A stretch of DNA of 20,752 nt, from IMG/VR virus record IMGVR_UViG_3300042922_000574, positions 1 through 20,752 of that record; one strand, given 5' to 3'. Within the stretch, counting starts at the first letter, position 1; the number at the start of each line of letters is the position of its first letter. Positions 1,731 through 19,548 of the stretch are shown here, piece after piece. The notes beneath the pieces were generated by a model that saw nothing but the letters and a program-made list of their open reading frames with translations, was not told where the DNA came from and did not search any database. The translations under genes and the position numbers were made by a program. This DNA comes from a virus.

Positions 1731-2378
1731 ATGAGCGTCAAAATCCCCAACGGCACCACATTCGAGATCGCCGCCACTCTCAGCGTGCCCAAAGCGTTCA
1801 CTGCGATCAGCAACGCCAAACCAGCGGTGCTCACTGCGGCGGCCCACGGCCTGACCAATGGCGACGTGATCGTGATCGATTCTGCCTGGGCGAAGTTGAA
1901 TGGCCGCCCGGCTCGCGTTATCGATTCGGATACTGGCGAATTCTCCGCCGAGGGCGTGGACACCACCAGCGTGAAAAGCTACCCGGTAGGCTCTGGCGCG
2001 GGGACTATTCGCGAGGCGACCGGCTGGACGCAAATCGCTCAGATTACCGAGCCTACTGCGAACGGTGGTGAGCAACAGTTTCTGACCTACGGCTTCCTCG
2101 AAGACGATGATGACCGCCAACTCCCAACCAACAAATCTGCCAGCAGCATGACGCTGCCGGTCGCTGACGACCCAGCGCAGGCCTATGTCTCGATCGTTGA
2201 AGCGGCTGACGAGGACAAGGAGCCACGCCTCATTCGTGCAAACCTGCCGGGCGGCGCGACGATTTACTACTACGCGTACGTGTCGATCACCGCGACCCCG
2301 ACACTGAGCCGAAACAACATCATGACGCGGACTATCACTCTGTCGTTCGCATCTCGCCCAACTCGCTACAACGCCTAA
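1731..2378 (+). CDS. Major tail tube protein (lambda gpV analogue)
   Basis: This 215-residue protein forms the stacked hexameric rings of the tail tube. It starts MSVKIPNGTTFEIAA at an ATG preceded by AGAGGAAAA, a strong Shine-Dalgarno. Sequence features include an early AVLTAAAHGLTNGDVIVID segment typical of Pseudomonas phage tube proteins, an acidic loop EDDDDRQLPT near residue 125, and a C-terminal strand-rich half (ATIYYYAYVSITATPTLSRNN) of the tube fold. It follows the terminator and precedes the G/GT chaperones, as in lambda. Strong beta character and the absence of any enzyme motif fit a structural role. Confidence 0.85.
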   Translation: MSVKIPNGTTFEIAATLSVPKAFTAISNAKPAVLTAAAHGLTNGDVIVIDSAWAKLNGRPARVIDSDTGEFSAEGVDTTSVKSYPVGSGAGTIREATGWTQIAQITEPTANGGEQQFLTYGFLEDDDDRQLPTNKSASSMTLPVADDPAQAYVSIVEAADEDKEPRLIRANLPGGATIYYYAYVSITATPTLSRNNIMTRTITLSFASRPTRYNA

Positions 2379-2387
2379 GGGGGTCCA

Positions 2388-2771
2388 ATGGCAAAGTTTT
2401 CCATCGCGCCGAAACCGACCTTCACGGTCGACGTGGCAATCCCGCAAGTCGGCGAAAAGCCGGCCATGGTGCCGTTTACTTTTAAGTATCGCGATCGAAC
2501 CGCGCTTGCCGAGTTGTTCGACTCCTGGAAGGCCAAGGCAGAGGCTATCGGCGAACGTTTCAAAGGCACAGAGCCGACGCTTGCCGAAGTCACTGCTGCG
2601 GAAGTCGAACAGGGCGTCGATCAGATCAAAGATCTGGTTGTTTCGTGGGGGTTCGGCGACAAGCTCAACGATGAGTCGATAACGGCGCTGGTGAAGAGCT
2701 GCATCGGCGTTTCAGATGCCGTCGTGAAAGCCTATAGCGAGGCCTTCGGCAAGGCCCGTCTGGGAAACTAA
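2388..2771 (+). CDS. Tail assembly chaperone, short form (gpG-like)
   Basis: This 127-residue protein is the unshifted product of the G/GT pair. Such chaperones coat the tape measure protein and recruit tube subunits, and are absent from the finished virion. The body has an N-terminal strand region (KPTFTVDVAIPQVGEKP) and the typical YRDRTALAELFDSWKAKAEAIG helix, then VVSWGFGDKLNDESITALVKS, the pattern of Pseudomonas phage tail assembly chaperones. A GGGGG Shine-Dalgarno lies 4 nt before the ATG. The gene ends CTG GGA AAC TAA, where a slippery heptamer touches the stop codon, so a fraction of ribosomes should continue into the next frame. Confidence 0.85.
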   Translation: MAKFSIAPKPTFTVDVAIPQVGEKPAMVPFTFKYRDRTALAELFDSWKAKAEAIGERFKGTEPTLAEVTAAEVEQGVDQIKDLVVSWGFGDKLNDESITALVKSCIGVSDAVVKAYSEAFGKARLGN

Positions 2772-3091
2772 CCGCCGCTGCCCGTGCGCTTTACGAGGTT
2801 GAGAGTGATGCCGAGCAGATGGCGATGTTCGGCTTTTCTCCTGACGACTACGACGAAACCTTCGAAGTCTGGCCGGACAACTGGAAATCATTCCTTGTTA
2901 TGGACTCGATGTGGACCCAGTGGCGCACTGGTGCATGCGGCGCAACCGGTCTCGATTACGGCGTTCTCACTGACGTGATGAAGCTTCTCGGTATTCCTGC
3001 CGAGGAACGTTCACGCGTGTTCCAAGACATTCGCGTCATGGAATCGGAGGCGATCGCAGTCATGGCTGCGGCCCGCGACAACAGCCCTTAG
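2388..3091 (+). CDS. Tail assembly chaperone frameshift fusion (gpGT-like), -1 slip at 2762-2768
   Basis: Slipping one base back on G GGA AAC (2762-2768), just before the TAA of the short form, joins the G frame to an open -1 frame that runs to TAG 3089-3091. The fusion would be about 234 residues: 127 from G and 107 from T. The T part contains ALYEVESDAEQMAMFGF, then DETFEVWPDNWKSFLVMDSMWTQWR, the DUF1799-like signature found in gpT-type domains. The T frame has no good start of its own: ATG 2819 (MAMFGF) lacks a Shine-Dalgarno and would cut off the conserved entry helix. Lambda uses GGGAAAG in the same place and direction. The fusion links tape measure to tube subunits during assembly. Confidence 0.82.
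2762..2768 (+). other. Programmed -1 frameshift site GGGAAAC
   Basis: In the G frame the bases read G GGA AAC followed at once by TAA. This fits X XXY YYZ, and a -1 slip re-pairs as GGG AAA and then reads CTA ACC GCC into the T frame. The direction, site and neighbours match the lambda G/GT arrangement; the last base is C instead of G. Confidence 0.82.
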
Positions 3092-3118
3092 AAACGGGCA
3101 TTTATTCAAGGTGAGTCG

Positions 3119-6100
3119 ATGAACATTGCAGAGCTCGGCGTCAAGATCGACTCGGCCGATGCAATTCAGGCTAAAACCAGTCTGGATGAAATGGCGAAGG
3201 CCGGCGGCCGCGCAGAGCAGTCCGCCGTTTCGTTGATGAACGAAATGCAGGCGCTGGAGAAATCGCTATCTACCAGCGCCAAGACCACTCAGGATCTCGC
3301 AAAGCAGCGCGAAGCACTGGCAAAGCTGACAAAAACCGGCGCCTATGGCGAGGCTGAGGCAGCGAAGCTATCAGCGCAGCTCGACAAGCAGCAGGTGGCG
3401 CTGGCCAAGTCGGCCATGGATGAGCAAAAGGCTCTGAACAGCCTGCTGGGCGCAATTGACCCGGCCCGCGCTGCGCTGTCCAAACTGGACACGCAGGTTG
3501 AGCAACTCGGCAAGCATTTAGACGCCGGTCGCATCAGCCAGGACCAATACAACTCAGCGCTGAGTAAGATCGACAAGGACTACGACAAGCTCGAAAAAAC
3601 CACCACCGGCTTCGACAAACTTCGCCTCGGCACCCGCCAGGCCCAAGAGAACGTCGTGCAGCTGGGTAATGCCCTGTCGTCTGGAGACTGGGGAAGTGGG
3701 GTTCGCGCCGTTGCTCAGCTGGGAGCCGGGGCCGGCGCCGGTGCCGCTGGCTTGCTCGCTATTCTTGCGCCACTCGCACTGGCTGCCGCAGCTGTTGGCG
3801 CGCTGGCCGTCGCCTATTACAAGGGCAGCGAAGAACAGGACGCCTATAGCAAATCCTTGATCCTCACCGGCAACTACGCAGGTGTGAGTGCCGGTCAGTT
3901 GGGCGAAATGGCTCGTCAGGTGAGTGCCACTGTAGGCACTACCGGTCAGGCGGCTGAAGTGCTCGCGCTGCTGGCGGGAAACGGAAAAATTGCGGGAGAG
4001 AGTTTTGCCGGGATCACCCAGGCTGCTGTGTCAATGCAGGAGGCTACCGGCAAGGCAGTCAGCGAGACGGTTACCGAATTCGCCAAGCTCGCCGATGACC
4101 CGGTAAAAGCGTCCGCCGCGCTCAATGAGCAGTACCACTATCTGACCGCTTCGGTTTATTCGCAGATTGCAGCGCTGGAACAGCAAGGCGACCACGCTGG
4201 CGCGGTAATGCTTGCGACTGAGCAGTACGCCGATGCGATCAACGAGCGCACGCCGCGCATTCTGGAGAACCTGAGCTTTTGGGAGAAGGGATATAAAGCG
4301 GTTGCGCGCGCGGCAGACAATCTGAAGAACATCGGCCGTCCTGATATCGACGCTGATATTGAGCAGGCCCGGCGCAATCTCGCTTCCGCACAAAAGGGCG
4401 ACGTCGGGGCGTTTCAAAACCAGAAGGAGATGGTCGAGCTCTACTCCAATCAGCTGAACATGCTGGAGGACCAGAAGGCAGCCCAGGCCGATATCGCAAA
4501 ATGGGAAGGCGAGCAGGCGAAAGCGCAGGGCGATGCAGTGTCGTCGATGTCGAAGATCGACGCGTTGGCCAAGTCCTCTTGGACGAACGAGCAGAAGCGC
4601 ACCGAGGCTATAAAGGAGTACAGGCGCCAACTCGATGACATACGCAAGGTCGCTCCGAACGATCCGCGCCTGAGCCAGGCAGCTATCGACAAGAACATTG
4701 CGAACATCAACGACAAGTTCAAGGATCCAAAAACACCTGCCGGTAGCGTCGACACTACAGGCTTCAATAACGCGAAAAACGCTTTGGCCGAGACACTGGC
4801 CTACTACAAAAATGCTGACAAGGAACTTGAGGCGTCTCAGCGCGCCGGTGTCATCTCCCAAGCAGATTACACCGAGCAGCGCGTGAGCCTACTCAACCAG
4901 CAGGCCAACGAAGTTTCCCTAAGCTACCAGGCTGAAATTGATGCCCTCGAAGCGGTCAAGGCCAAGAAGGGCACGACCAGCGCTCAGATCATTCAGATTG
5001 ACCAGAAAATTGCCGACGCCCGCAGTGCCATGGTTAAGGCGCAGCAGGACAGCGACAGCGAGCTGGCCCTGATCGCGACCAACGAAGAGGGCCGTCTTCG
5101 TAAGCAGACTCTGGCGGTCAACTCTTACACGAGTGCTTTGCAACAGCAGGTCGACACCCTTCGTCAGCAGGGGCTGCGGGCCGCGTCCGGCCTCGGACAG
5201 GGAGACCGGCAGCGCGGACTGACCGAGCAGCAGAACGGAATCGACGATCGATTCAATCAGCAGCGTCTGGAGTTGGCCAACCAGTACGGCGATGGCTCAC
5301 GCGGTATGAGCCTCGAGGAGTACACCCAGAAGCTCGCCGCGCTGAAAGCCACGCAGCAAGATCTGCACGACACGGTGCAGGCGAACTACGACGACATGAC
5401 AGTCGCCCAAGGCAGTTGGAGTGCCGGTGCTTCCTCAGCTTGGCAGAACTACTTGGAATCAGCCCGTGATGTCGCGGGACAGACGAAAAGCCTGTTCACC
5501 AATGCCTTCAGTTCGATGGAAGACGCTGTCGTCAACTTCGCCATGACCGGGAAGCTGTCGTTTGCTGACTTCACCAAGTCGATTCTGGCGGACATGGCGC
5601 GGATCGCTACCCGTCAGGCCAGTTCGGCGCTGCTGAGCAGTCTGGTTGGCGCTGGCGCAAGCTACTTCGGTGGAGGCGGCGCGGCAACCTCGGCAGGCTC
5701 CGCTGCGGCGGGATACAGCGGTGACTTGTCAGGCTTCACGCCGGGCAGCGTCCAAGCGAATGGTGGTGCATGGTCCGGTGGCGTTCAGATGTTCGCCAAT
5801 GGCGCGGCGTTCACCAACTCCGTCGTGAGCAAGCCGACAGCCTTCGGCATGGCAGGCGGGCAGACCGGCGTCATGGGCGAGGCAGGGCCTGAGGCAATCA
5901 TGCCACTGACCCGCACCGCCGGCGGTCAACTGGGCGTCCGGGCAATCAGCGGCGGCGGGAGTGGGGGCGGCAGCGTCTACAACTTCCCCGTCGCGGTATC
6001 GGTGCAAACCCAGGGCAATGGCGGCGCGGCCAGCACGGAAGACACCTCGCAGCTTGGCAAGGGGATTCAGCAAGCGGCGAAAGCCGAAGCTGAAACCGCC

Positions 6101-6160
6101 ATCGCGCGAGCGCTGCAGCCCGGCGGCTCAATCTGGAAACTCACGAACGGGAGGGGCTGA
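3119..6160 (+). CDS. Tail length tape measure protein (lambda gpH analogue)
   Basis: This 1013-residue protein sets tail length and is probably injected with the DNA. The N-terminal 190 residues are alanine/glutamine/lysine-rich helix (coiled coil). A hydrophobic stretch around residues 204-233 (AGLLAILAPLALAAAAVGALAVAYY) could enter the membrane. More long helices follow to about residue 720. Residues about 765-850 match the lambda-family tape measure C-terminus: SLFTNAFSSMEDAVVNFAM then GKLSFADFTKSILADMARIA. The end is glycine/serine-rich with GEAGPEAIMPL, a common motif of these proteins. The ATG has an AAGGTGAG Shine-Dalgarno. The stop overlaps the next start in TGATG. Lambda gpH is 853 residues, so a somewhat longer tail is expected. 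Confidence 0.95.
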   Translation: MNIAELGVKIDSADAIQAKTSLDEMAKAGGRAEQSAVSLMNEMQALEKSLSTSAKTTQDLAKQREALAKLTKTGAYGEAEAAKLSAQLDKQQVALAKSAMDEQKALNSLLGAIDPARAALSKLDTQVEQLGKHLDAGRISQDQYNSALSKIDKDYDKLEKTTTGFDKLRLGTRQAQENVVQLGNALSSGDWGSGVRAVAQLGAGAGAGAAGLLAILAPLALAAAAVGALAVAYYKGSEEQDAYSKSLILTGNYAGVSAGQLGEMARQVSATVGTTGQAAEVLALLAGNGKIAGESFAGITQAAVSMQEATGKAVSETVTEFAKLADDPVKASAALNEQYHYLTASVYSQIAALEQQGDHAGAVMLATEQYADAINERTPRILENLSFWEKGYKAVARAADNLKNIGRPDIDADIEQARRNLASAQKGDVGAFQNQKEMVELYSNQLNMLEDQKAAQADIAKWEGEQAKAQGDAVSSMSKIDALAKSSWTNEQKRTEAIKEYRRQLDDIRKVAPNDPRLSQAAIDKNIANINDKFKDPKTPAGSVDTTGFNNAKNALAETLAYYKNADKELEASQRAGVISQADYTEQRVSLLNQQANEVSLSYQAEIDALEAVKAKKGTTSAQIIQIDQKIADARSAMVKAQQDSDSELALIATNEEGRLRKQTLAVNSYTSALQQQVDTLRQQGLRAASGLGQGDRQRGLTEQQNGIDDRFNQQRLELANQYGDGSRGMSLEEYTQKLAALKATQQDLHDTVQANYDDMTVAQGSWSAGASSAWQNYLESARDVAGQTKSLFTNAFSSMEDAVVNFAMTGKLSFADFTKSILADMARIATRQASSALLSSLVGAGASYFGGGGAATSAGSAAAGYSGDLSGFTPGSVQANGGAWSGGVQMFANGAAFTNSVVSKPTAFGMAGGQTGVMGEAGPEAIMPLTRTAGGQLGVRAISGGGSGGGSVYNFPVAVSVQTQGNGGAASTEDTSQLGKGIQQAAKAEAETAIARALQPGGSIWKLTNGRG

Positions 6161-7258: not shown

Positions 7259-8029
7259 ATGCGAAAGCACATCTTGAACGCGATCCAGGCGCACGCGGCA
7301 GTCGAGTACCCGAAAGAGTGCTGCGGGCTGCTGCTGGCGATCGGTCGCAAGCAACAATACTTCCCCTGCATCAATGTCTCTACCGAGCCAAGCGAAGAGT
7401 TCCGGATCAATCCCGAGGAATACGCGGCGGCCGAGGACATCGGTGAGGTGATCGGCGTGGTGCACTCACATCCGGACGCGACCAGCAGACCGTCACCGCG
7501 CGACCTCGCCATGTGCGAAGCGACTGCGATGCCCTGGTACATCCTGAGCTGGCCGGAAGGCGATCTGCGGACCATCGTTCCCACCGGTGAAGTGCCGCTG
7601 CTGAAACGGCCTTTTGTACACGGCGCCTGGGACTGCTGGCAGGTCTGCGCCGATTGGTACAAGCGCGAGTGGGGCTTGGAGTTCGAGCCCTTCAAGCGCG
7701 CCGATGGCTGGTGGGAAAGCAATGAAAACACCAGTCTGTACGAGGCGAACTACGAGGCCGCCGGCTTTTACCGTGTCGACCAGCCGCAGCGCGGCGACAT
7801 GATCGTGATGGAAGTGGGGCGCACGGTTTATCCGAACCACGCCGGCATTTTTCTCGGCGCTGATCCAGCTCTGCCGGGCGAAGATGCCGCCACGTTTGGC
7901 CCCGGGCCTTTCCTGCTGCACCACCTGTACGGCAGGCCTTCAGAGGTCATTGTCTTCGGTGGGCCTTGGCTCGATCGCACACGTCTAATCCTGAGGCATA
8001 AATTCTATCAACAAACCGCGTATTACTAA
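7259..8029 (+). CDS. Tail assembly protein K: JAMM peptidase plus NlpC/P60 hydrolase
   Basis: This 256-residue, two-domain protein is of the lambda gpK type. Residues about 1-110 form a Mov34/JAMM domain with E20 (PKECCGLLL) and an intact H69-x-H71-x7-S79-xx-D82 zinc motif in VVHSHPDATSRPSPRD. Residues about 115-225 form an NlpC/P60 domain with the catalytic cysteine C126 (HGAWDCWQ) and histidine H194 (PNHAGIF). Such proteins assist tip assembly and may cut peptidoglycan cross-links during entry. It starts 1 nt after L. Base composition turns AT-rich in the final nine or so codons (KFYQQTAYY), right where the accessory block begins, so the extreme C-terminus may have been replaced by the insertion. 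Confidence 0.93.
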   Translation: MRKHILNAIQAHAAVEYPKECCGLLLAIGRKQQYFPCINVSTEPSEEFRINPEEYAAAEDIGEVIGVVHSHPDATSRPSPRDLAMCEATAMPWYILSWPEGDLRTIVPTGEVPLLKRPFVHGAWDCWQVCADWYKREWGLEFEPFKRADGWWESNENTSLYEANYEAAGFYRVDQPQRGDMIVMEVGRTVYPNHAGIFLGADPALPGEDAATFGPGPFLLHHLYGRPSEVIVFGGPWLDRTRLILRHKFYQQTAYY

Positions 8030-8062
8030 GCTTCATGGATGGTATTAACCTTACACCCAGCT

Positions 8063-8091
8063 TTGGCGATGCGTGTTAATGGTGGTAGATT
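8063..8091 (+). promoter_or_regulatory. Possible promoter of the Imm-like/lipoprotein block
   Basis: TTGGCG (8063-8068) and TAGATT (8086-8091) are 17 nt apart; each matches the sigma-70 boxes at 4 of 6 positions. It lies in the AT-rich gap after K, upstream of the Imm-like start at 8118. This is a pattern match only. Confidence 0.3.
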
Positions 8092-8117
8092 GCTGCGATC
8101 AATTTAGGGAGATGAAT

Positions 8118-8444
8118 ATGGTGGAAATAGGACTGGGGATAGTTTTTATCTTCTTGATGATCGCCACTTACTTTTTGCCGTCATTCAATGCTTTCAGTCG
8201 AAAGCACCCGGACAGATGGTCTATTTTTATGCTGGATCTTTTTCTCGGCTGGACCCTCATTGGATGGGTCGTCTCCCTCGTTTGGTCTGTCTCCTCAATA
8301 ACGTCTCCGGGCAAGCCCCGGGTTCAATTTCACGCTGAAGACGATAAGTATCAGAAGCTCGAAAAAATCGGTAGCCTGAAGGAAAAAGGCCTCCTCACGG
8401 AAAGTGAATTTGAGGCTGAGAAAGCCAAACTTCTGCAAAGCTAA
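8118..8444 (+). CDS. Imm-like superinfection immunity membrane protein with SHOCT domain
   Basis: This 108-residue membrane protein starts at ATG 8118, which has AGGGAG six bases upstream; the earlier ATG 8112 touches that Shine-Dalgarno, and 8073 has none. Helix 1 spans about residues 4-22. Helix 2 spans about 33-58 and contains the family signature RWSIFMLDLFLGWTLIGWVV, matching T4 Imm-type superinfection immunity proteins (asn/asp-leu-phe-leu-GWT-gly-W). Residues 78-106 (KYQKLEKIGSLKEKGLLTESEF) form a SHOCT domain, a short helical module common in membrane-linked proteins. T4 Imm blocks DNA entry of related phages at the inner membrane. Placed as an accessory gene inside the tail operon, this is a good candidate for a prophage-expressed exclusion gene; activity is inferred. 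Confidence 0.75.
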   Translation: MVEIGLGIVFIFLMIATYFLPSFNAFSRKHPDRWSIFMLDLFLGWTLIGWVVSLVWSVSSITSPGKPRVQFHAEDDKYQKLEKIGSLKEKGLLTESEFEAEKAKLLQS

Positions 8445-8500
8445 AAGAAAAAACTCGATCCATTTGTTACCTTCGGTGAGTTAGATAGCGGGGAATAAAC

Positions 8501-8845
8501 ATGCGAATTGCGATGGGAGCACTCGCGGTAGCGCTGTTGGCGGGGTGTGTATCGCCCGGCGATCTGCAGAAAAATGACCCGAGCTTCAAGGCAACAACCG
8601 CGAAAGACCCTAAGCGCTATGCGCTGTGTGTTTTCCCGAAATGGCAGGACGCCAGAAGCGATGCCTCAATGTCCGAAACAGAAAACGGATACAGATTGCT
8701 GGTCGCGAGCAACAATATGACAGACGAGCTGCTGGATATTCGCAAAGCACCGAAGGGCAGTTCCGTCACGCTGTATCAGCGCATGGCATGGTCGCCAGGC
8801 TATGGCCGCGGAGACATGAAGCAGGCAATAAAAGATTGCCTTTGA
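8501..8845 (+). CDS. Small predicted lipoprotein (accessory/moron)
   Basis: This 114-residue protein has a lipoprotein signal: MRIAMGALAVALLAGC with a LAGC lipobox and the modified cysteine at residue 16. Valine at +2 favours the outer membrane by the E. coli rule. The mature part holds two more cysteines (RYALCVFPKW near 43 and the C-terminal DCL), possibly a disulfide, and no recognised enzyme motif. GGGGA lies 6 nt before the ATG. It follows the Imm-like gene by 56 nt with no terminator between, and is closed by one at 8859-8880, so both are probably one unit. Small phage lipoproteins such as Cor of N15/phi80 and Llp of T5 mask outer-membrane receptors. A similar role is possible here but there is no clear similarity to them. 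Confidence 0.7.
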   Translation: MRIAMGALAVALLAGCVSPGDLQKNDPSFKATTAKDPKRYALCVFPKWQDARSDASMSETENGYRLLVASNNMTDELLDIRKAPKGSSVTLYQRMAWSPGYGRGDMKQAIKDCL

Positions 8846-8852
8846 ACACAAA

Positions 8853-8880
8853 AAAACAGCCGCTGAAAGGCGGTTTTTTT
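8853..8880 (+). terminator. Intrinsic terminator after the lipoprotein gene
   Basis: GCCGC (8859-8863) pairs with GCGGT (8870-8874) around TGAAAG, followed by seven T (8874-8880) and preceded by an A run (8851-8856) that can extend the stem and make it bidirectional. It ends about 6 nt before the Shine-Dalgarno of gene I. Confidence 0.75.
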
Positions 8881-8896: not shown

Positions 8897-9487
8897 GTGA
8901 CAGCACCTGCACATTGCCGCCCGATGATGACAACCATTCTTTTATCCGGTCCGCTGATTAAACGGTTCGGGCGAGTGCACTACCGCGAACTGGGCAGCCG
9001 TTCCGTAGGGGAGGCGTTCAAGGCGCTGAAGTGCACGCTAGAGGGATTCGACGCAGCGATCAAAGACTTGGAGCGGCGCGGTCTGCGCTTCGCCATTTTC
9101 CGGAACAGAAAGAACGTACCTGAGAAGGATTTCGCGCTGGGCGGCGCTCAGGAAATCCGCATCGTGCCGGTGGTTGGCGGCAGCAAGCGTGCTGGCCTGC
9201 TTCAAACGATCATCGGCGCAGTCCTGATTGCTGCATCGTTCATTCCGGGGTTTCAGGCTTTGGCCCCGGTGGGCATTGCACTTGTTGCCGGCGGTGTCAT
9301 CCAAATGCTCAGTCCGCAGGCCTCGGGCCTAAAGCAGAGCGCCTCCCCCGAAAACTCCCCGTCCTACGCCTTCGGCAGCGCCAAGAACACCACGGCCAGC
9401 GGCAACCCGGTACCGATCTGCATCGGCGAGCGCCGCTGGGGTGGAATGATCATCTCAGCCTCCATCCTGGCTGAGGACAAAGTGTAA
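8897..9487 (+). CDS. Tail assembly protein I
   Basis: This 196-residue protein is of the lambda gpI family, needed for tip assembly with K and J but not clearly kept in the virion. GTG 8897 is chosen because GGAG (8887-8890) is 6 nt upstream; the ATG pair about 30 nt later has no Shine-Dalgarno. The family signature is visible in GPLIKRFGRVHYREL, the central EALKALKCT-like helix (residues 39-48), and FRNRKNVPEKDF. A glycine-rich hydrophobic stretch covers about residues 101-138 (AGLLQTIIGAVLIAASFIPG). The C-terminus ends with NPVPICIGERRWGGMIISAS, as expected. It is cut off from K by the Imm/lipoprotein block and from J by a minus-strand gene, although I normally abuts both. Confidence 0.9.
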   Translation: MTAPAHCRPMMTTILLSGPLIKRFGRVHYRELGSRSVGEAFKALKCTLEGFDAAIKDLERRGLRFAIFRNRKNVPEKDFALGGAQEIRIVPVVGGSKRAGLLQTIIGAVLIAASFIPGFQALAPVGIALVAGGVIQMLSPQASGLKQSASPENSPSYAFGSAKNTTASGNPVPICIGERRWGGMIISASILAEDKV

Positions 9488-9492
9488 AAAGT

Positions 9493-9777
9493 TTATGACT
9501 GAGGGGAGGCGGAAGGGCGCGGTTGCTTCTTAAAGTTTGAGGTCCGAATGTACCTGGCAAGCATCCATAATCCGCTACCAACTGCGGCAAACACTAGAGC
9601 GAAAATCAATTCGGCAAATCCCTGACCAATCTGTTGGGGCGTTACATATCTGGAGAGCATTTTTACCGAAGAGGTGATGATTGTGTATGCAGTGAAAATC
9701 CACAACACGGATGAAATTGCGTACACCGGAAGCGAAAGGATTGTTCGTAGCCAAGCTGGAGCTTTTTTCATCAGCAC
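9493..9777 (-). CDS. Small two-helix membrane protein, unknown function (moron)
   Basis: This 94-residue protein lies on the strand opposite to all tail genes, in the gap between I and J. The GTG at 9777-9775 is preferred over ATG 9771 because AAGGA lies 5 nt before it. Hydrophobic helices span about residues 11-35 (LRTILSLPVYAISSVLWIFTAYTII) and 51-75 (GQGFAELIFALVFAAVGSGLWML), separated by a short loop with RYVTPQQ, and the C-terminus is basic and polar. A TAGAAT box (plus coordinates 9833-9838) about 55 nt upstream could be a -10, but its -35 is poor. The gene is less GC-rich than I and J. It could be a phage accessory membrane protein; I do not recognise a family, and a holin role is not supported. 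Confidence 0.6.
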   Translation of the reverse strand: MLMKKAPAWLRTILSLPVYAISSVLWIFTAYTIITSSVKMLSRYVTPQQIGQGFAELIFALVFAAVGSGLWMLARYIRTSNFKKQPRPSASPQS

Positions 9778-16025: not shown

Positions 16026-16051
16026 TTGTTGCAACAAATACCTCAGCCTCC

Positions 16052-16060
16052 TGCTAAAAT
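16052..16060 (+). promoter_or_regulatory. Possible extended -10 promoter for the plus-strand acyltransferase
   Basis: TGCTAAAAT has the TGn extended -10 element next to TAAAAT (5 of 6 to TATAAT). A start of transcription about 7 nt later would leave a short leader before ATG 16086. The nearest -35-like TTGCAA (16029-16034) is 20 nt away, which is long, so the extended -10 would have to compensate. Confidence 0.35.
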
Positions 16061-16085
16061 GTCATTTTCGGTACGTTCGGTCGAC

Positions 16086-17141
16086 ATGAATAATAAGCAC
16101 ATGCCAGCCCTTGACGGGCTTCGAGGGATTGCGGCTCTTATAGTGGTTGTCAGTCACTACAGCAACGAAACAAATCTATGGGGTGGTTCCCTTGGGTCAG
16201 GTGCTGGCCAAGCAGGCGTCATATTATTTTTCATTCTATCGGGCTTCCTGATAACCAAGCTTCATATTGATCAGCAGTTCAATTTAACAAACTGCGGAAC
16301 GTACGCTATCCGAAGAATTGCCAGGGTCTACCCTTACTTTGTGATTGTCGCTGCGCTTCCAGCCTTCTTAGTTTGGGTTGGCTTTCCAGGCAAGATAGGA
16401 ATGGTTGAAATCGATTCGTTTCCTAAATATTTACGACAGATTCTTCTAGTAGAGCGAGGCGCTAACGTATTTTGGACTATTCAGGTTGAGATATTATTCT
16501 ATGCAAGCTTTATCGGTATTTGGATTTTTGCTAGAGCGGTAAGAAACTCGATAATCGTTTTTGTGATGGTTGCCCTTGTCATGGTTTGTAGCCTATTACT
16601 CAAGCCTAAGACAGGGTTTCTGTTCTTCGACTCAGCGCACATCTTTTTGATTGGCGTCCTTTCAGCGATTGCTTACAAATGGATGCCGAATAGACTTACT
16701 GGCTTAGCATGGTCTGTTGCAGGCTTGTCTCTGCTTTTGTCTGTACCTTTGACGTTTCCGGTGATTTATAAGTCATTGACTGGGGTTGAGATTGATCCAT
16801 GGCTTAGTATTCTTGTTCTAGCACAGTTAGCTACGCTCTTTAATCTCTCTCTAAGAGGGTCAGGTCTATTGGGTGGTTTCCTTTCTAGCAAAGTGCTTGT
16901 TTGGTTAGGTAAGATTTCCTACTCAATTTACTTACTGCATTACTTTGTATTGGTTGGTTTTCTTTCCTTGGCTGGGCCTGTACCAAATCATGCTATATAT
17001 TTCACCTGTGTCATGAGCTTGGTTATACCGATTTCATGGGTTGGATATAAATATGTAGAGATGCCGGTCCAGAGGCTTGTGTTAAACATGCCGACTGCCG
17101 CCAGTCGGCTTTTTTCAATACGAGCAAGTAAGGTGATTTAG
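16086..17141 (+). CDS. Membrane O-acyltransferase, acyltransferase-3 family (putative O-antigen modification)
   Basis: This 351-residue integral inner-membrane protein has about ten hydrophobic helices. ATG 16086 (MNNKHMPALDGLRG) is preferred; the frame is open to 16026 and has ATG 16059 inside the putative promoter. Family motifs are LDGLRGIAALIVVVSHYSN with R13 and H24, VILFFILSGFLITKL, RRIARVYPYF, and the late KISYSIYLLHYFVLV. These enzymes move acetyl groups onto surface sugars; in phages they change O-antigen and block re-infection. Codon use is strikingly AT-rich compared with flanking tail genes, a sign of recent transfer. A strong terminator hairpin lies inside its last 18 codons. The substrate cannot be told from sequence. 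Confidence 0.85.
   Translation: MNNKHMPALDGLRGIAALIVVVSHYSNETNLWGGSLGSGAGQAGVILFFILSGFLITKLHIDQQFNLTNCGTYAIRRIARVYPYFVIVAALPAFLVWVGFPGKIGMVEIDSFPKYLRQILLVERGANVFWTIQVEILFYASFIGIWIFARAVRNSIIVFVMVALVMVCSLLLKPKTGFLFFDSAHIFLIGVLSAIAYKWMPNRLTGLAWSVAGLSLLLSVPLTFPVIYKSLTGVEIDPWLSILVLAQLATLFNLSLRGSGLLGGFLSSKVLVWLGKISYSIYLLHYFVLVGFLSLAGPVPNHAIYFTCVMSLVIPISWVGYKYVEMPVQRLVLNMPTAASRLFSIRASKVI
17090..17115 (+). terminator. Intrinsic terminator inside the 3' end of the acyltransferase CDS
   Basis: GCCGACTG (17090-17097) pairs perfectly with CAGTCGGC (17102-17109) around CCGC, followed by six T (17110-17115). It ends about 24 nt before the stop codon TAG 17139-17141, so a transcript ended here would lack the stop. 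Confidence 0.7.
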
Positions 17142-17744: not shown

Positions 17745-17769
17745 TAGGCGGTCCTCACATCCACGCCTA
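17745..17769 (-). terminator. Weak hairpin at the end of the minus-strand acyltransferase
   Basis: On the minus strand TAGGCG pairs with CGCCTA (plus coordinates 17764-17769 and 17745-17750) around a 13-nt loop, overlapping the TAG stop. No T run follows on that strand, so termination would be inefficient. Confidence 0.3.
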
Positions 17770-18903
17770 AGAATTCTTGAGTTCCTCTTTGCTATCTTTA
17801 ATTTTATATTCATGTTGGTCTGCCCAGTATAACAGTCTGGCCCTGATGTGACCCGATAGCCGGCTCTCAAGATAATGATGAGAGATAGTAGCAAGAAGCA
17901 ATGCAACTGATGTGGTGAGAAATACATGCGACCATGTATGCGTCAAATCTGGTCGTCCCAAAGCTGTTATCAATTTGGACAATACTTGCTGCGCTATCGG
18001 GTGGCAAAGATAAAGCGAGAAGGATATCTTGCCTAGCCATAATAGTACTGGTGGGGCTTTGATTGCATCAACGGAGCCGGATATTGACAGCAGGATGAAA
18101 GCAAGAGCAAGTGGTCCGCCCCACTGGTCCATTCCATGAAATTTGTAAAGGCCCGAGTAGGCGCACCAAATTGCGAATGCCACGGCTATTAGCGTGATTG
18201 AATAATCGACATGGCCACGCGGTAGTCTCAACTTTGAGCTGAATGCGACGCCCGCGATAACTCCGGCTGGGAATGTCCAGAGCATTGGATTGGTTATCAG
18301 ATTTAAGTATCGCGACTCGAAGCCATAGTTGTTCATTGCACTCGTTGAAACATAGCCCGTAGTGATAAGTGGTAAAATAATAAGAGATGCTACTAGCCAA
18401 AGCATCGCCACAGTCCAGCGATGCTTGCCAGCCATAAGGCAGAGCCCAAATACTAGATAGAAATACATCTCGAAATTGAGCGTCCAGCCTACGCTCCAAG
18501 GCATGTCAAAAAAAGGAGGATTATTAGAGTTGATTGGTATGAAAATAAAGCTAAGAAGTATTTCTTTAAGGTGTATCGGAGCGCTTAAATACTCTCCATT
18601 TTTAACTAGCAATAAGCCTGTAATTGCTACTACTAGATAGACTGGCAGTATTCTCGATCCGCGCTTGATTAAAAACTTGATAGTGTACTTCAACGTGCCA
18701 TCAGCGTCCCTAGTCGTGTAGGCCATGATGAAGCCGCTGATTAAGAAAAAAAGATCCACTCCCATCGCACCTGGAAAGAAAACGGCTTCAGCTAGCCCTT
18801 CACTCGGTGTTCCCAGTAGAAAGTATCGGGCATGCGTGAAGACCACCAATATAGCTGCGACGCCACGCAGGCATTGAAGCCACTCCAAATTCCTCGTTTC
18901 CAT
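17767..18903 (-). CDS. Membrane O-acyltransferase, acyltransferase-3 family, minus strand
   Basis: This 378-residue multi-helix inner-membrane protein is transcribed against the late operon. ATG 18903-18901 (METRNLEWLQCLRG) has AAGGA 5 nt upstream, so the longer frame to 19032 is not used. Motifs are CLRGVAAILVVFTHARY with R13 and H24, MGVDLFFLISGFIMAY, KRGSRILPVYL, and KISFSLYLCHPIAQQVL near the C-terminus. The same family covers OafA-like O-antigen acetylases. It is only loosely similar to the plus-strand acyltransferase outside these motifs, so the pair is not a recent duplication. Low GC relative to the flanking lysis genes and an own promoter mark it as a lysogenic-conversion cassette. 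The acyl acceptor is unknown. Confidence 0.85.
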   Translation of the reverse strand: METRNLEWLQCLRGVAAILVVFTHARYFLLGTPSEGLAEAVFFPGAMGVDLFFLISGFIMAYTTRDADGTLKYTIKFLIKRGSRILPVYLVVAITGLLLVKNGEYLSAPIHLKEILLSFIFIPINSNNPPFFDMPWSVGWTLNFEMYFYLVFGLCLMAGKHRWTVAMLWLVASLIILPLITTGYVSTSAMNNYGFESRYLNLITNPMLWTFPAGVIAGVAFSSKLRLPRGHVDYSITLIAVAFAIWCAYSGLYKFHGMDQWGGPLALAFILLSISGSVDAIKAPPVLLWLGKISFSLYLCHPIAQQVLSKLITALGRPDLTHTWSHVFLTTSVALLLATISHHYLESRLSGHIRARLLYWADQHEYKIKDSKEELKNS

Positions 18904-18934
18904 GTTGTTCCTTTTTAAATATATATCGGCGTTG

Positions 18935-18962
18935 ATTATACGTAGCCAACTCTGAGTGGCCA
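18935..18962 (-). promoter_or_regulatory. Promoter of the minus-strand acyltransferase
   Basis: Read on the minus strand, TGGCCA (plus 18957-18962; 4 of 6 to TTGACA) and a perfect TATAAT (plus 18935-18940) are 16 nt apart, ending about 32 nt before ATG 18903. It would let a lysogen transcribe the gene independently of phage late transcription. The -35 lies in the palindrome GTGGCCAC, which might be an operator. Confidence 0.55.
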
Positions 18963-19014
18963 CTGGGTACGGGCCATTTGTAGTGAGTTGCGGTCTATCA
19001 CCAGTGGAGAAACT

Positions 19015-19548
19015 ATGTCTATCACTACGCAAAATTTGCTGCTGATTCTACCGAACGCCCGCACCCAAGCGGGCGTTTTTGTTTCCGCCCTGAACACTGC
19101 CATGCAGCACTACCAGATCGTCGGCCCAAAGCGCGTTGCCGCGTTCATCGCTCAGATCGGCCATGAATCTGGCCAGCTGCGCTACGTCCGTGAGATCTGG
19201 GGGCCGACTGCCGCTCAGCGCGGTTATGAGGGACGCGAAGACCTGGGCAATACCGTGCCGGGCGACGGGCGCAAGTATTGCGGACGAGGACTGGTCCAGA
19301 TCACCGGCCGGGCGAACTACGCCAAGTGCGGCGAGGCGCTGGGTCTCGACCTGATCAATCACCCTGAATTGCTTGAGCTGCCGCAGCATGCCGCTATGTC
19401 AGCAGCGTGGTTCTGGAAGCAGAAGGGCTTGAATGATTTGGCCGATCGGGACGACTTCAACACCATCACCCGCCGCATAAACGGCGGGTTGAACGGCTTG
19501 CAGGATCGTCTGGAAATCTGGAAGAAGGCGCGCGAGGTGCTGGCGTGA
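19015..19548 (+). CDS. GH19 (chitinase-type) endolysin
   Basis: This 177-residue protein starts at ATG 19015, with TGGAGA 4-5 nt upstream; the frame extends to 18988 without a Shine-Dalgarno. It belongs to glycoside hydrolase family 19, and phage members cut the glycan strand of peptidoglycan at lysis. The catalytic pair is probably E51 (QIGHESGQL) and E60 (YVREIWGPTAAQ); GRGLVQITGRANYAKCGEALG at about 90-110 and TRRINGG near 156 are also conserved. No signal peptide or transmembrane segment is seen, so a holin should be needed. Its GTGA junction with Rz puts it in a lysis cassette. A strong hairpin lies over codons 14-21. Confidence 0.9.
   Translation: MSITTQNLLLILPNARTQAGVFVSALNTAMQHYQIVGPKRVAAFIAQIGHESGQLRYVREIWGPTAAQRGYEGREDLGNTVPGDGRKYCGRGLVQITGRANYAKCGEALGLDLINHPELLELPQHAAMSAAWFWKQKGLNDLADRDDFNTITRRINGGLNGLQDRLEIWKKAREVLA
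19054..19080 (+). terminator. Terminator-like hairpin inside the endolysin gene
   Basis: AACGCCCGC (19054-19062) pairs perfectly with GCGGGCGTT (19069-19077) around ACCCAA, followed by T to 19080: a classic terminator shape, lying 39 nt after the start codon. It encodes NARTQAGVF, a normal stretch for the family, so the structure may be coincidental or an attenuator. Confidence 0.45.

Follow-up and report, generated by a model that had tools for sequence, protein, structure and literature searches.

The Imm protein of phage T4 blocks DNA entry. As cited in PMC10883804, gp15 of phage HK97 has an exclusion function that depends on the tape measure protein (TMP) or tube genes, and Cor of N15 and phi80 is a small prophage protein that is encoded near the tail genes and renders the receptor FhuA inactive. 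Expression of the envelope lipoproteins of mEpimmI phages, which are of several sequence types and whose genes lie in the structural cluster, leads to phage exclusion (PMC11893012). As cited in PMC11480721, Ltp of TP-J34 is a superinfection-exclusion lipoprotein whose target is the TMP. The preliminary description of the locus analyzed here had taken its pairing of an Imm-SHOCT protein with a lipoprotein not to be a standard described system, and we likewise found no such pair described in the open-access literature.

The imm-lip unit and its borders

The window, that is, the whole stretch of DNA that we analyzed, is a virus record of 20,752 bases with a lambda-like tail module, and the isolated phages retrieved with its lipoprotein are Pseudomonas phages. 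Table 1 shows the features of the unit and its surroundings. The reverse-strand open reading frame (ORF) in the I/J interval had no family match among Pfam and PHROG profiles. Downstream of the tail genes, two ORFs (16026-17141 on the plus strand and 17767-19032 on the minus strand) resemble membrane acyltransferases and are candidates for a possible O-antigen modification.

Table 1. Coordinates of the imm-lip unit and neighboring features in the window
Feature	Position	Strand	Description
Tape measure gene	3119-6160		Followed by genes L, K, I, and J
Tail assembly gene K	7259..8029	+	JAB + NlpC/P60 (Pfam PF14464/PF00877, phrog_30); upstream border of the slot
Extended -10 promoter, TGGTAGATT	8083..8091	+	35 nt before the imm ATG; geometry as in the pre-lip motif of relatives
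Ribosome binding site of imm, AGGGAG	8106..8111	+	Read from sequence
imm	8118..8444	+	108 aa; Imm_superinfect domain, two hydrophobic segments, SHOCT tail
Possible internal extended -10, TGTTACCTT	8465..8473	+	Weak; upstream of lip; no counterpart in L071 or L072
lip	8501..8845	+	114-aa lipoprotein, LIP-A/phrog_914; signal peptide, residues 1-15; lipobox Cys16
Rho-independent terminator	8858..8880	+	lip/I interval; stem 8858-8875 plus T tract
Tail assembly gene I	8897..9487	+	phrog_32, E 1e-62; downstream border of the slot
Two-helix moron ORF	9493..9777	-	I/J interval; separate from the imm-lip unit; also in L005, L012, L072, L134, L136, and L141

The product of imm matched the Imm_superinfect family (Pfam PF14373; E value of 4.8e-18 and 65.2 bits, with a curated cut-off of 27.9) and PHROG 1039 (phrog_1039), annotated as "immunity to superinfection" (E value of 4.5e-22), and its C terminus matched the SHOCT domain (PF09851; E value of 2.5e-6 and 27.5 bits, with a cut-off of 27). 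It contains the motif GWTLIGW, and its hydrophobic segments lie at about residues 1 to 27 and 34 to 59. The ATG at 8118, which is kept in the alignment with the relatives L071 and L072, is the likely start. Judging from family and position, the protein would act in exclusion.

The product of lip matched the phrog_914 profile over its full length (residues 1 to 114; E value of 2.2e-34). It has a signal peptide with the lipobox LLAGC, of which G15 and C16 were invariant in an alignment of 31 sequences, identifying it as a lipoprotein; C43 and C113 were also invariant, and a Cys43-Cys113 disulfide is likely. Lipoproteins without Asp at position +2 are likely to be placed in the outer membrane. 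Since the residues that follow the lipobox cysteine are VSP, with no Asp at +2, this placement is likely for lip as well. The AlphaFold model of lip had a pLDDT of 86.6, and the LIP-A structure alignment (A4) comprised the window and the viral-collection loci, with two database records left out. The predicted LIP-A fold is mixed alpha/beta, and its model gave no informative or confident match of known function in the PDB and a viral structure library. The same was true, in the PDB, of the model of LIP-B (phrog_890, weakly DUF2846), the second lipoprotein type found in relatives and unrelated to LIP-A.

A plain -35/-10 scan of the window returned no promoter, and the one before imm was detected only through comparison of relatives. 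In 74 of 107 loci, an extended -10 motif (TGNTANNNT) preceded lip by 32 to 36 nt, versus 2.4% in mononucleotide shuffles, and where lip follows K without an insert, the TGA of the motif, as read from sequence, doubles in many cases as the K stop codon. In the window, TGGTAGATT lies before imm at the distance that separates the motif from lip in relatives, and it is conserved in L071 (TGGTAAATT) and L072 (TGATAGATT), so that by their anatomy imm and lip belong to a single unit; the motif was also kept in L203, L205, and L206. The terminator between lip and I was seen in 106 of 108 distinct loci. By this anatomy, imm-lip is a moron transcription unit between tail genes, with its own promoter and terminator, and it can probably be read in the lysogen. 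These results bear out the preliminary description, which had recognized an Imm-type protein (GWT-x-x-GW signature, two helices, and SHOCT tail) followed by a lipobox protein, with a candidate promoter at one end of the pair and a terminator at the other.

The lipoprotein site before gene I

Among 66 viral loci retrieved by the lipoprotein, lip preceded I wherever I was present. In order to avoid the bias of a lipoprotein query, 80 loci were also retrieved by gene I (the best 80 of 557, so that these are close relatives only), and in all of those with upstream DNA (79 of 79), LIP-A or LIP-B was directly before I. A lipoprotein was found in every relative examined, most of them without Imm. The gap between K and lip was shorter than 70 nt, here called the empty state, in 27 of 91 loci and was filled in the other 64, reaching up to 3.7 kb. 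K and I had been described initially as normally adjoining; in the close relatives examined, the lipoprotein precedes I, and only imm is an insert compared with the empty state. There are other arrangements: in L424 and L426, LIP-B is found in the I/J interval or behind I, not between K and I, and in phiAH14a (L002, 14640-14984; L385), LIP-A and a tail assembly gene are found beside the repressor region, apart from the phage's own K-LIP-B-I-J tail module.

The cargo of the K-lip slot was varied and included a chemotaxis receptor, Panacea/SocA, YafO-type and toxin-antitoxin-like proteins, and other lipoproteins. PADLOC detected no defense family among imm, lip, and the cargo sampled. A complete methyl-accepting chemotaxis protein lies between K and the lipoprotein in L028, L029, and L030 (about 2249-3889). 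L006 and L016 have a Panacea/SocA-like protein, supported by a Pfam match for L006, that is followed immediately by a membrane protein, a possible toxin-antitoxin or defense pair. Directly before lip, an additional lipoprotein (CLDES/CFE type, about 193 residues) was found in L102, L110, L115, L131, and L049; in L102 and L110, it follows the same promoter motif, and the L102 protein had no confident Pfam or PHROG family. L015 carries a LIP-B-like lipoprotein and LIP-A in tandem (3426-4342).

Behind one promoter and one signal peptide, there are two main unrelated mature domains, LIP-A and LIP-B, as well as rarer ones, and the break in identity is the lipobox cysteine. LIP-A and LIP-B DNA sequences were about 70% identical within the signal peptide and no more alike than expected by chance past the lipobox; in the best pairs, identity was 96% from -45 to +48, a stretch that covers the promoter and signal peptide, and fell to about 25% beyond it. 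In the same way, L203, L205, and L206 shared 99% over imm and the signal peptide and 26 to 35% beyond. In a scan with the leader sequence, the mature domains fell into five clusters, and for members of the two large clusters, the next gene was I in nearly every case. The repeated replacement of the mature domain at one site suggests that the specificity of the lipoprotein is under selection. The divergence of LIP-A followed that of the tail fiber J only weakly (rho of 0.22 for the N part and 0.14 for the C part), and therefore, a lipoprotein matched to the phage's own receptor by coevolution with J is not supported.

The lipoprotein could also be a host-derived envelope fitness or lysogenic-conversion factor, with Imm as the only antiviral component, a reading that we regard as rather unlikely. 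In 299 Pseudomonas genomes sampled, LIP-A was matched in 246 and LIP-B in 107, with an Imm match in 14. Many of the LIP-A matches were weaker, and those inspected were at chromosomal sites without tail genes, so that phages may have acquired the lipoprotein from their hosts, and the LIP-A family need not be antiviral. The weak covariation with J and the presence of a chemotaxis receptor and toxin-antitoxin-like genes among the slot cargo would also fit this explanation. However, unrelated mature domains have been replaced repeatedly at one site, which points to a selected specificity, and the analogous mEpimmI lipoproteins, again of several types, do exclude phages. A gene beside one chromosomal LIP-B homologue (L406), which we take to resemble a TonB-dependent receptor gene, had no counterpart at the other chromosomal LIP-B homologues resolved and was discarded as a lead.

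Imm-type genes beside lip and beside the tape measure gene

An Imm gene directly precedes lip in the window, in the viral loci L071, L072, L203, L205, L206, and L113, and in Pseudomonas genomes G090, G092, and G219. In L113, the Imm domain has a zinc-ribbon tail and its gene overlaps lip by 1 nt; genes of the same zinc-ribbon type share 4 nt with lip in G090 and G092 (LIP-A) and in G219 (LIP-B). In G113, there is an Imm match directly before LIP-B, which is absent from the follow-up ORF list. The search for the same pair in other prophages, proposed at the outset, has thus revealed a neighborhood that recurs in several lineages and with either type of lipoprotein. Near-identical imm DNA was joined in L203, L205, and L206 to three lipoprotein alleles (LIP-A, LIP-B, and a divergent LIP-A), and related imm genes have a LIP-A partner in the window and a LIP-B partner in L071.

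A profile-guided scan for Imm-SHOCT provided 65 full-length loci, of which 55 lay immediately before the tape measure gene, 5 occupied the K-lip slot, 3 were elsewhere, and 2 were cut by contig ends. The neighbors were TMPs by PHROGs in all eight scanned (8/8), and a terminator followed imm in each of the 53 distinct pre-TMP loci (53/53, with 0.4 expected from shuffles). Divergence of Imm was weakly related to that of the TMP start (rho, 0.31) and not related to that of the TMP end (rho, 0.07), with which no coevolution was seen. The position of Imm-SHOCT next to the tape measure gene offers a testable prediction about the target of Imm.

One could imagine a dedicated two-component device in which Imm and the lipoprotein act across both membranes, each needing the other. 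The cotranscription of imm and lip indicated by the anatomy of the window, the repeated occurrence, in several lineages, of Imm genes immediately preceding lip, and the overlap with lip in the zinc-ribbon class speak for it. Against it, lip occurs mostly without Imm, Imm-SHOCT occurs mostly without lip, and the same imm is found with different lipoprotein types; the two do not behave as a matched pair, and we consider such a device unlikely, clearly more so than a host-derived lipoprotein, with stacked independent layers as the best fit. Of the two-layer device put forward in the preliminary description, what stands is a recurrent moron unit that encodes a predicted inner-membrane protein together with a lipoprotein; the notion of a single dedicated device does not. 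Finally, that imm and lip are virion or tail-assembly factors and not morons is highly improbable, since the constant position before I within the tail operon is outweighed by their own promoter and terminator, the lipoprotein signal peptide, the replacement by unrelated domains, and the weak covariation with tail genes.

Proposed stacked exclusion layers and known systems

We favor, with moderate confidence, the reading that a single moron unit combines two independent superinfection-exclusion layers, stacked on a platform with a swappable lipoprotein. The promoter-imm-lip-terminator moron would lie within the late tail operon and be readable from the repressed prophage. The lipoprotein, as the fixed occupant before I, would act in the envelope and would most likely interfere with the adsorption of incoming siphophages or with the release of their DNA, and its specificity would change by swapping the mature domain behind the constant promoter and signal peptide. 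Imm-SHOCT would be an optional inner-membrane layer, most likely one that stops incoming DNA at the tape-measure/inner-membrane step, like HK97 gp15 and, as regards DNA entry, T4 Imm. Both layers would work independently, the common promoter stacking them without making a single machine. Points against this reading are the low covariation of LIP-A with J and of Imm with the TMP, the weaker chromosomal LIP-A homologues, and the two lipoprotein folds, neither of which gave a confident match of known function. A further, more tentative proposal is that the site before I is an allele-switching exclusion locus, at which unrelated domains are joined by recombination at the lipobox to an invariant promoter and signal peptide, lysogens differ in the phages that they exclude, and Imm or other envelope proteins share the transcript and form a second layer; we see this as possible, albeit with the odds against it.

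If the stacked-layer reading is correct, a widespread Pseudomonas-type prophage family keeps in its late operon a fixed site, with its own promoter, for interchangeable envelope exclusion proteins. This would help to predict which lysogens resist which phages, and the natural set of domains swapped behind one leader would allow tests of how lipoproteins choose their targets.

Exclusion by the lipoprotein is proposed by analogy with Cor and the mEpimmI lipoproteins. The latter resemble LIP-A and LIP-B in being lipoproteins of several sequence types from a structural cluster of temperate phages, a likeness of kind and position, and they belong to another host; Cor differs in location, being downstream of J in N15. 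Ltp of TP-J34 comes from a Gram-positive host and has two repeat helix-turn-helix domains, in contrast to the mixed alpha/beta fold predicted for LIP-A. The window Imm shares with T4 Imm (PF14373, phrog_1039) the GWT-x-x-GW signature and the membrane segments but has a SHOCT tail and is part of a prophage-type moron unit, whereas T4 is a lytic phage. HK97 gp15 is reportedly a YebE-like single-helix protein, not an Imm domain, and the window imm is located before lip instead of before the tape measure gene. HK97 has the same layout: gp15 and a terminator precede its tape measure gene, another terminator precedes I, and the I/J interval holds morons in both forward and reverse orientation. The Imm-SHOCT relatives occupy the same slot as gp15, directly before the tape measure gene and with a terminator, and the reverse-strand ORF of the window has the same position as the HK97 reverse moron gp23.
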